Origin: Streptosporangium sp. NBC_01755
Lineage (GTDB): Bacteria; Actinomycetota; Actinomycetes; Streptosporangiales; Streptosporangiaceae
Length of the DNA: 64,000 nucleotides
Direction of reading: 5' to 3'
NCBI RefSeq assembly: GCF_035917995.1
Contig: NZ_CP109131.1
Location: 6,634,001-6,698,000, forward strand
Shown here: positions 30,601 to 34,100 of the stretch, piece after piece
Layout: each line of letters begins with the position of its first letter
Position numbering within the stretch: the stretch's first letter is position 1
The notes under the pieces: model-generated
Database searches by the model: none
What the model was told of the DNA's origin: nothing
Seen by the model: only the letters and a program-made list of their open reading frames with translations
Position numbers and translations under genes: made by a program

Positions 30601-31197
30601 GTGTTGAGCGATGCGGCGTTCTCACTGGTGGCGACGCGGTCGGCGTTTGAGCATCGGGCGGTGGTGCTGGCCGCCGATCGTGATGGGGTGCTGGCCGGTC
30701 TGGGGGCGCTGGCCGAGGACCGTGCGGGTGCGGGTGTGGTGCGCGGGGTGGCCGGGGCGGAGCCGCGGCTGGCGGTGCTGTTCACCGGTCAGGGCAGTCA
30801 GCGGGTGGGGATGGGGCGGGAGTTGTATGCGCGGTTCCCGGTGTTCGCGGCGGCGTTGGATGCGGTGATCGCGGAGCTGGACCCGCTGCTGGAGCGGTTG
30901 GAGCGGGAGCCGGCCGGGCAGCCGGATGGTGGGTCGGTCGAGTGGGTGGGGTGTTCGGTGCGGGAGGTGCTGTTCGCCGAGCCGGGTTCGGTCGAGGCGG
31001 GGTTGCTGGATCGGACGGGGTGGGCGCAGCCGGCGTTGTTCGCGGTGGAGACGGCGCTGTTCCGGTTGGTGGAGTCCTGGGGGTGCGGCCGGGTGTGCTG
31101 GCGGGGCATTCGATCGGGGAGATCACCGCGGCGCATGTGGCGGGGGTGTTGTCCCTGTCGGATGCGTGTGTGCTGGTGGCGGGTCGGGCGCGGTTGA
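9625..31197 (+). CDS. Giant modular type I PKS, 5' part: loading module to module 4 AT (frameshifted)
   Basis: The start is GTG at 9625 with GGGGAG seven bases before it. The in-frame protein runs 7,152 residues: loading module KSQ-AT-ACP, three complete KS-AT-DH-KR-ACP modules, then KS and half the AT of module 4. At 31078-31083 one G is missing from a run (five G, where modules 2 and 5 have six in the same Trp-Gly-Val codons). The frame then adds about 38 meaningless residues and stops at 31197. Restoring one G joins this to the downstream frame, giving one protein of 12,018 residues. I think a sequencing or assembly error is most likely, given the homopolymer inside long repeats; a real null mutation is possible. 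The enzyme extends acyl chains on its carrier domains in the cytosol. Confidence 0.93.
9670..12790 (+). other. PKS loading module: KSQ-AT(methylmalonyl)-ACP
   Basis: KSQ spans about 9670-10920. The active-site Cys is replaced by Gln in VDTGQSSS (codon 10159-10161, residue 179), the hallmark of decarboxylating loading ketosynthases. The AT (about 11395-12340) has GHSQGE and a YASH motif, both methylmalonyl-type. The ACP (about 12570-12790) has the phosphopantetheine serine in ELGFDSAM. Prediction from known KSQ modules: methylmalonyl is loaded and decarboxylated to a propionyl starter. Confidence 0.93.
12859..18140 (+). other. PKS module 1: KS-AT(malonyl)-DH-KR-ACP
   Basis: KS has [10 protein letters not shown] (about 14500-15330) has GHSIGE and HAFH, so malonyl. 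DH has [11 protein letters not shown] (HxxxGxxxxP) and DAALQ. KR has TGGLSGLG, an LDD motif (B-type) and NYSAAN. ACP has LGLDSL. No enoylreductase lies between DH and KR, so this module should leave a double bond. The KS-AT linker is Ser/Glu-rich low-complexity sequence. Confidence 0.92.
18223..23525 (+). other. PKS module 2: KS-AT(malonyl)-DH-KR(atypical)-ACP
   Basis: KS has [10 protein letters not shown] has GHSIGE/HAFH (malonyl), DH has [11 protein letters not shown] and DAAMH, ACP has MGLDSL. The KR keeps TGGTGGLG and the Ser/Tyr/Asn residues (VSSAGGL, GNYAAAN) but has AADN where the others have LDD, and LAYGLW for LAWGPW. It therefore lacks the B-type marker, and I see no A-type Trp either. 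It is probably active, with uncertain hydroxyl stereochemistry. Confidence 0.9.
19414..20705. repeat. About 1.29-kb KS end-AT repeat, module 2 copy
   Basis: Pairs with 24868-26159 in module 3 at a constant offset of 5454 and differs at only a small number of bases. It covers the end of the KS, the KS-AT linker and nearly all of the AT. The AT halves recur again in modules 4 (about 30780-31675) and 5 (about 36340-37110). Confidence 0.85.
23590..29080 (+). other. PKS module 3: KS-AT(malonyl)-DH-KR(B)-ACP
   Basis: KS has [10 protein letters not shown] has GHSIGE/HAFH, malonyl; DH has [11 protein letters not shown] and DSALH; KR has [11 protein letters not shown] and [10 protein letters not shown] has LGFDSL. 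There is no enoylreductase. Its DH-KR-ACP DNA is nearly identical to that of module 4, and its AT to that of module 2. Confidence 0.92.
24868..26159. repeat. About 1.29-kb KS end-AT repeat, module 3 copy
   Basis: Second copy of 19414-20705. The visible changes include VVVG to AVVG, EGAPA to QGAPA, RAGMG to RVGMG, VRPG to MRPG and RESE to REKE, so it is diverging slowly or recently homogenised. Confidence 0.85.
26890..29246. repeat. 2357-bp near-perfect PKS repeat, module 3 copy
   Basis: Covers the second half of the module 3 DH, the KR, the ACP and the first bases of the next KS. It matches 32403-34759 at constant offset 5513. The only differences I find are three bases in and next to the Gly-Ser-coding GGCTCC tract near 27895-27930. 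Confidence 0.9.
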
Positions 31198-34100
31198 TGC
31201 AGGCGCTCCCTGCCGGTGGGGCGATGGTCGCGGTGCGGGCCTCTGAGGAGGAGGTCGCCGTCCTGCTGGCGGGGCGGGAGAAGGAGGTGTCGGTCGCGGC
31301 GGTGAACGGTCCGGCCTCGGTGGTGGTCGCCGGGGTGGAGGAGGCGGTGCTGGCCATCGCCGCCGAGTTGGAGTCTCGGGGGGTCAGGACGAAGCGGTTG
31401 CGGGTGTCGCATGCGTTCCATTCGCCGTTGATGGATCCGATGCTGGAGGACTTCCGGGCGGTGGCGGGCGCGCTGACCTACAGCCCGCCGCAGATTCCTC
31501 TCGTGTCGACGGTGACCGGGCAGGCGGCCACCGCCGAGCAGTTGTGCTCACCGGATTACTGGGTGGATCAGGTGCGTGGCGCGGTGCGGTTCTCCGACGG
31601 TGTCCGGACGTTGCACGCTCAGGGGGTGCGGGCGTATCTGGAGCTGGGGCCGGACGGTGTGCTGACCGCGATGGCCGATGACACCCTCGCCGTACTCGCC
31701 GACGCGGAGGAGGCTGCCCGTTCGCGGGTGGCCGCCGAGGAGTCGGATATTCATCGCGTCATCATGGGCGGGTATGCGGACTCGGACCCGGTGCTGGTGT
31801 CGGCGCTGCGCAGGGGCCAGGACGAGCAGGCGACGATCATGACGGCGCTGGCCGCCCTGCACGTGCGTGGGGTGCCGGTGAGCTGGCCGACGGTGCTTCC
31901 CGGTGCCCGCCGGGTGGAGTTGCCGACGTACGCCTTCCAGCGTCAGTGGTTCTGGCCGAGTGGCAGACGGGCCGGAGATGCCGAAGGTCTCGGACAGGTC
32001 GTGGCGGGGCATCCGCTGCTGGGTGCTGCCGTGGGGCTGGCCGATACCGATGAGGCGCTGCTGACCGGTCGTATCTCGCTGGGGTCGCATCCGTGGCTGG
32101 CCGATCACATGGTGGACGGGATGGTGGTGTTCCCCGGCACCGGGTTCCTGGAGCTGGCGGTGCGGGCGGGTGATGAGGTCGGCTGTGATCTGGTCGAGGA
32201 GCTGACCTTGACCGCGCCGCTGGTGCTGGGTGCGGACGACGCGGTCGCGGTGCAGGTGCGGGTGGGACCTGTGGACGGGGTGGGCCGGCGTGAGGTGAGC
32301 GTCCACGCCCGGCCGGCCGGGGCCGGTGATCACGGTGCCTGGGTACGGCATGCCGGTGGTCTGCTGGCCAGTGGCGGGAACAGTGGTGAGGTCGCGGGGT
32401 ACTTCGATACGGCGGTGTGGCCGCCGCGGGGTGCGTCGGTGATCGAGCTGGATGGGTTGTATGAGCGGCTGGCCGAGGGTGGGCTGGGTTACGGGCCGGT
32501 GTTTCAGGGGTTGCGGGGCGCTTGGCGGGGTGCGGACGGTGTGGTGTTCGCCGAGGTCGGCCTGTCTGAGCAGGTTGCCGATGCGGGGTCGTTCGGGTTG
32601 CATCCGGCGTTGCTGGATTCGGCGTTGCACGCGGTGGCCTTTGCCGGGCTGGAGGGTTCCGAGGGTGTGCGGTTGCCGTTCTCGTGGGGTGGGGTGTGTC
32701 TGCACGCGGGTGGTGCGTCGGTGTTGCGGGTGCGGTTGGTCTGGACGGGTGACGATGCGCTGTCGCTGAGTGCGGTGGACGCGGCTGGGGAGCCGGTGTT
32801 GTCGGCGCGTTCGCTGGTGTTGCGGCCGATCGTGGTCGATCAGCCGGCCGCCGGTGGCGCTTCGCTTGGGGACTCGCTGTTCCAGTTGGCCTGGACGGTG
32901 TTGCCCGAAGTGTCGGAGGTGGCCGGTGTCGAGCTTGATGTGGTTGAGCTGAGTCTGGACCTGGAATCGGGTTCGGAGGCGGGGCCGGCGGTGCTGGAGG
33001 TGGTGCCGGAGGTGGTGACCGTCGTGGTCGGGTCGGCCGGGGACGGGTCCGGGGACGGGGACGTGGTGGGGTCGGTGCATGCCTTGACCGCCCGGGTGCT
33101 GGGGTGGATGCAGGGGTGGCTGGCCGATGAGCGGTGTGCTGATTCGCGGCTGGTGATGGTGACGCGGGGCGCGGTCGTGGCAGGTGCGGGGGAGGCGGTC
33201 ACCGATCTGGGCGCGGCGGCGGTGTGGGGGTTGGTGCGGTCGGCGCAGTCGGAGAATCCTGGCCGGTTCGTGCTGGTGGATGTGGAGGAGGGGGTGTCTC
33301 TGTCGGCGCTGCCCGGGGTGTTGTCGGGGGTGCTGGTCTCGGGTGAGCCGCAGGTGGCGGTGCGCGGGGGTGAGGTGCGGGTGCCGCGCTTGGCGCGGGT
33401 GACGCCCGGCTCCGGCTCCGGCTCCGGCTCCGGCTCCGGTGATGGCCTTGGCGTTGGGTGTGGTGTTGACCTCGCGGTTGGCTCTGGCTCTGGTCTGGGT
33501 GAGGATCGCGTCTGGGATCCGGAGGGGACGGTGTTGATCACTGGTGGGACCGGTGGTCTGGGCGGGTTGTTCGCGCGGCATGTGGTGGCCGGGCGTGGGG
33601 TGCGGCGTCTGCTGCTGACCAGCCGCCGGGGCCTGGACGCTCCGGGCGCGCTGGAGTTGCGGGCGGAGCTGATCGCGCATGGGGTCGAGGTGGAGATCGC
33701 GGCGTGTGATGTGGCCGATCGGGATCAGGTGGCGGCGCTGCTGGCGCGGGTCCCGGCCGATCATCCGTTGACGGCGGTGATTCATACCGCGGGTGTGCTG
33801 GACGACGGGACGATTCCGTCGTTGTCGGCGGAGCGGCTGGATGTGGTGTTGCGGCCGAAGGTGGATGCGGTCTGGTATCTGCATGAGTTGACCCGGGGTC
33901 TGGATCTGGCGGCGTTCGTGGTGTTCTCGTCGGTGGCGGGGACGTTCGGTGGGGCGGGTCAGGGTAACTACGCGGCGGCGAACGCGTTCTTGGACGCGTT
34001 GGCGCAGGTGCGGCGGTCGCAGGGGCTGGCCGCGCTGTCGCTGGCGTGGGGGCCGTGGGCGCAGGACGCCGGGATGACCGGTGGGCTGGATGAGGTCGAT

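Follow-up and report, generated by a model that had tools for sequence, protein, structure and literature searches.

Long-read assemblies are described as retaining errors where polishing fails in repeats (Wick and Holt 2022, Polypolish, PMC8812927). The legend of Fig. 1A in that paper presents a case like the one met here, a one-base run deletion in one copy of a repeat whose sister copy is free of error. Their work draws on simulated and real reads, whereas our reading is made from the finished sequence alone and the repeats are PKS modules. In the long-read assembly of Streptomyces albus SM254, 205 indels remained before Illumina correction, nearly all of them in runs of G or C (PMC4832174). 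That case resembles ours in its high-G+C genome and in its indels at G/C runs; it was corrected with reads, and the passages concerned make no tie to PKS repeats. The locus itself resembles the giant modular type I PKSs of macrolides and polyenes, in which a KSQ loading module is followed by modules of the order KS-AT-DH-KR-ACP, here assigned by motif. Unlike those systems, it has two proteins that, as written, are each interrupted within an AT domain. Among the matches listed in a literature search, we found neither falsely split PKS genes nor a report of this cluster.

The PKS gene and its frame change in module 4

The window, meaning the whole stretch of 64,000 nucleotides that was analysed, comprises positions 6634001-6698000 of a single 8.149 Mb contig, and all other genome positions refer to the same contig. 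The PKS in the window has a loading module, with DTGQSSS in its KS and GHSQGE in its AT, and six modules spaced 5.36-5.56 kb apart, each carrying KS, AT and KR motifs. The DH pattern matched five of the six modules, and the remaining one deviates, by eye, at the first residue of the pattern. The ER motif pattern gave no match anywhere, yet it missed an ER-like domain seen by Pfam 3' of the second frame break described below, so that its zero matches are no proof of ER absence. Domains of the KS, AT and DH types follow one another in modular order across the frame-change site, as in a modular type I PKS. The part of module 4 that lies in the 3' piece comprises the AT from GHSIGE at 31104 and a DH, with KR and ACP recognised by motif, and the 3' piece ends in a tail that looks docking-like by eye.

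The initial annotation had proposed that the run has five G in module 4 but six in modules 2 and 5, and that the shifted frame then runs into a stop. Both statements agree with the sequence (Table 1): the three runs read as described, and the 5' reading frame, which opens at 9514, is closed by the TGA. The next frame, described there as intact beyond the break, is open from 30684 to 45680. Adding one base makes the total length divisible by three, as claimed, and gives 12,018 codons when counted from the GTG at 9625, a likely start that we chose among possible ones. Modules 1 and 6 differ in sequence at the equivalent of the module 4 run. Fifteen AT sites across the two PKS regions read share the exact context T, G-run, TGCGGCCG; 14 of them have six G, and only the one in module 4 has five. 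Two further matches to the TGCGGCCG context, with three G, lie outside AT sites and are not counted among the 15.

Table 1. Positions of the PKS pieces and run lengths in the window, and of run-length losses in 23S rRNA copies (contig positions)
Feature	Position	Strand	Remarks
5' PKS piece as written	9625-31197	+	KSQ loading module, modules 1-3, module 4 to mid AT
3' PKS piece	31084-45680	+	next frame; remaining module 4, modules 5 and 6, tail
G6 run, AT of module 2	20108-20113	+	comparison copy
GGGGGA, AT of module 3	25562-25567	+	comparison copy; in frame, Met replacing Val
G5 run, AT of module 4	31079-31083	+	site of frame change
TGA stop	31195-31197	+	met in shifted frame
G6 run, AT of module 5	36640-36645	+	
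23S run-length loss	2,943,470-2,943,488		single copy, relative to sister copies and congeners
23S run-length loss	6,791,294-6,791,313		single copy, relative to sister copies and congeners
23S run-length loss	7,184,908-7,184,927		single copy, relative to sister copies and congeners

A codon-usage frame model places the frame change at 31078-31095. The Pfam AT profile (PF00698) is cut at the same site, with profile positions 3-81 matched on its 5' side and 87-282 on its 3' side, while the intact AT of module 5 matches 3-316. Since the AT domain runs on across the shift, the frame change is not due to chance. A natural gene boundary was ruled out, as it would cut the AT in mid-domain.

A second split AT domain and the exact repeats around both sites

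The PKS belongs to a cluster that extends from about 6,485,708 to 6,679,680 (about 194 kb; 193,973 positions) and contains 33 AT active-site motifs. Within this cluster, 88 kb upstream of the module 4 site and outside the window, a second one-base run deletion lies near 6,576,944, again inside an AT domain. Here three C stand where sister modules have four, and PF00698 is matched at 2-124 and then at 127-317. The other 11 contexts matching the pattern at this site are all one base longer (C4 before T in six, C4 before G in three, TTCCC in two). The lesion splits a PKS that would otherwise have about 16,900 residues.

Scanning the cluster for nonsense codons and, with the frame model, for further frame breaks returned only these two run deletions. 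In nonsense codons, frame breaks and KS and ACP motifs, the gene set shows no further decay of the kind expected of a real pseudogene. Each of the 33 KS domains has HGTGT, N-x-GH and the Cys motif, in which the loading KS has Gln; ACP motifs likewise number 33.

Both deletions lie in sequence that is repeated exactly. The module 4 site matches module 5 exactly over the 91 bases that precede the run and the 127 that follow it (218 in total), and a PKS at 7.38 Mb over 91 and 124 nucleotides. The second lesion and its sister module have exact flanks of 285 and 152 nucleotides (437 in total). When exact repeats are defined as 121-base words found at least twice across the two PKS regions read, they make up 19.4% of the cluster (37,607 of 193,973 positions). 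The change in module 4 is one base in a homopolymer, for which a copy with exact flanks and a full-length run is present.

Frame breaks, IS copies and 23S rRNA genes elsewhere in the genome

As a control, the frame model was applied to 1.6 Mb of core sequence in six non-PKS regions, with 1,285,840 coding bases by the model. A first, narrower filter missed the second PKS site and was widened; the model needs coding pieces of 150 bases on each side and misses lesions near gene ends. The core scan returned 17 frame-break candidates, and the translations of all of them were inspected by eye. Among those in unique sequence, no candidate could be resolved as a run deletion of one base, with the one near 2,385,830 counted neither way. 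Seven are, by eye, ordinary neighbouring or overlapping genes. Others were rejected as run deletions on inspection. The one at 3,073,326 is transposase-like, single-copy and has a two-base insertion, and a radical-SAM-like gene at 5,178,868 has one extra or two missing bases outside any run. Internal deletions were seen by eye at 5,069,334, 2,243,380 and 4,198,900. The candidate at 5,907,165 is rearranged relative to congeners, with a matched block two bases longer than in one genome (G003). At 4,155,781 another frame takes over, and at 4,000,901 the candidate is a Pro/Ala repeat tail.

Truly disrupted genes number, by eye, about 7-9 per 1.286 Mb of coding sequence in this genome. Two in 194 kb are therefore not odd by number alone, and we dropped the count of frame breaks as evidence for either an artefact or a real lesion. 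Among G/C runs of at least four bases, two losses occur in 516 runs within the PKS exact repeats, against no resolved loss in 13,448 runs of coding sequence outside them, a set made up of the core and the remainder of the cluster (Fisher p 0.0014, an optimistic value because the first site was given beforehand).

One core candidate, at 1,691,650, lies in an IS-like element (1,690,700-1,692,400) that has eight near-identical copies. In this copy A3 has become A2 and the frame is shifted; the other seven copies, at 99-100% identity, retain A3, and the A2 is the sole gap against each of them over the 1,155 bases compared. A ninth copy is 77% identical. A transposase can genuinely lose a base.

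The comparison of rRNA copies needs no reading frame and so serves as an independent test. The genome has six 23S copies, which differ within CGCGGGGAAGTGAAACATCT: five read G4 and one reads G3. Among 60 genomes (this one and relatives), CGCGGGGAAGTGAAACATCT has the G4 form at 80 places in 23 genomes and the G3 form at four places in two genomes, one place here and three in a relative; 37 of the 60 matched neither form, so that this pattern does not reach every genome. The single-contig relative G035 has G3 at 472,067, 628,814 and 5,699,152, in addition to three G4 copies, and these places perhaps share the same assembly problem. At a second 23S site, two of the six copies have G5 and the remaining four G6. 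Among congeners, G6 was found there at 40 places in 10 genomes and G5 in none of 15, five of which matched neither form. The two G5 copies have further variants in common and may represent one event or a real polymorphism. In the well-aligned part of the six rrn operons there are four indel events, three of which change a run length (G4/G3 in one copy, G6/G5 in two, GG/G in one); the fourth, common to two copies, lies outside any run. The IS, the 23S genes and the second AT, all of them repeats, show the same type of change, and no case could be resolved in the sampled unique coding sequence.

Origin of the run deletions and surroundings of the cluster

The five G of module 4 are very probably a residual homopolymer deletion in the assembly and not in the organism, so that the cluster would not be silent. 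The initial annotation had already favoured an error of assembly or base calling, in a run of G lying within long repeats, and the second split AT and the parallels in the IS and 23S copies lend this weight. That first reading did not include the second split AT domain, the parallels in rRNA and IS copies or a stop codon in a congener, described below. We infer that the genome was built from long reads and polished with short reads. A long-read draft would have lost bases in runs, and short-read polishing would then have mended the unique sequence. In exact repeats, the best alignment for correct short reads would have been the sister copy free of the error, and the wrong copy, left without reads, would have stayed wrong. 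The losses are in runs, are defined relative to sister copies and each have a correct sister, which fits such a failure of polishing in repeats. On this reading, a single open frame of about 12,000 codons would make up the true gene, and the protein split at the second site would be one chain of about 16,900 residues.

The chief alternative, which we consider unlikely, is that slippage really deleted one base, inactivating module 4 and silencing the cluster, with the second lesion arising under relaxed selection. G runs are natural slippage sites, and truly disrupted genes are present in this genome. In addition, the congener G002 carries an orthologous PKS, with 72.7-76.0% protein identity over collinear pieces, that has an amber codon (TAG) in the KS of module 1 at 21020-21022 of its contig C8, where the gene in the window encodes Glu. 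The sequence around this codon is not repeated within the 100 kb read, and from the sequence the codon looks either like genuine loss in that strain or like an uncommon substitution error. A real loss of this PKS is therefore credible in the genus. However, both deletions here are of the type made by assembly errors, both fall in the exactly repeated 19% of the cluster, and parallel run deletions occur in 23S rRNA and IS copies. The absence of any nonsense codon or further frame break from the scanned cluster, with 33 of 33 KS and 33 ACP motif sets intact, also speaks against a decaying gene set. A related idea, that the AT deletions are real and reversible, the runs in shared AT repeats acting as slippage or gene-conversion switches for giant PKSs and the congener stop being a fixed off state, strikes us as highly improbable.

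Still less credible is phase variation, in which cells would switch between five and six G and thereby turn the PKS off and on. The run is prone to slippage and two ATs of the cluster have been struck independently, but the 14 other AT sites of identical context all have six G. Six bases make a short run for a contingency locus, and the same pattern is found in rRNA genes, where switching would be senseless. We give equally little credence to programmed ribosomal frameshifting or transcriptional slippage joining the two frames. Re-pairing of a tRNA-Gly on a run of G is conceivable, and nothing more speaks for it. Against it, sister modules encode the same peptide without a shift, and no second G5 AT of the TGCGGCCG context was found in which to seek a conserved signal. 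The orthologue in G002 needs no shift either: it is in one frame at the module 4 site, with the AT motif at 38,642 of C8 and the frame open from 21,023 to 52,390. Orthologue and sister modules all read in one frame, and no conserved frameshifting signal was seen in them.

With the assembly error as the preferred reading, the split PKS is probably not a real feature of the organism's biology. Taken at face value, the record would show two giant PKS proteins broken and a dead cluster; the likelier picture is an intact assembly line of 33 ATs with two genes falsely split. Near-identical repeats are the building blocks of modular PKS genes, so the same trap should be met again in other giant clusters, where it would mislead genome mining. 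A cheap test for such slips is to compare the rRNA and IS copies of one assembly with each other.

The PKS presumably loads methylmalonyl and extends with malonyl units, giving a polyene-like stretch. Beside it, Pfam identifies genes for a thioesterase (window 34-942), a C-methyltransferase-type protein (2024-3325) and a DegT-family aminotransferase (8003-9097), which from their sequences suggest a product bearing an amino sugar. Separately, the minus strand at 6,703,763-6,705,414 holds a mosaic of pieces in different frames within 1.65 kb. By eye, these are luciferase-like monooxygenase at both ends, with peptidase-like and threonine-synthase-like pieces.
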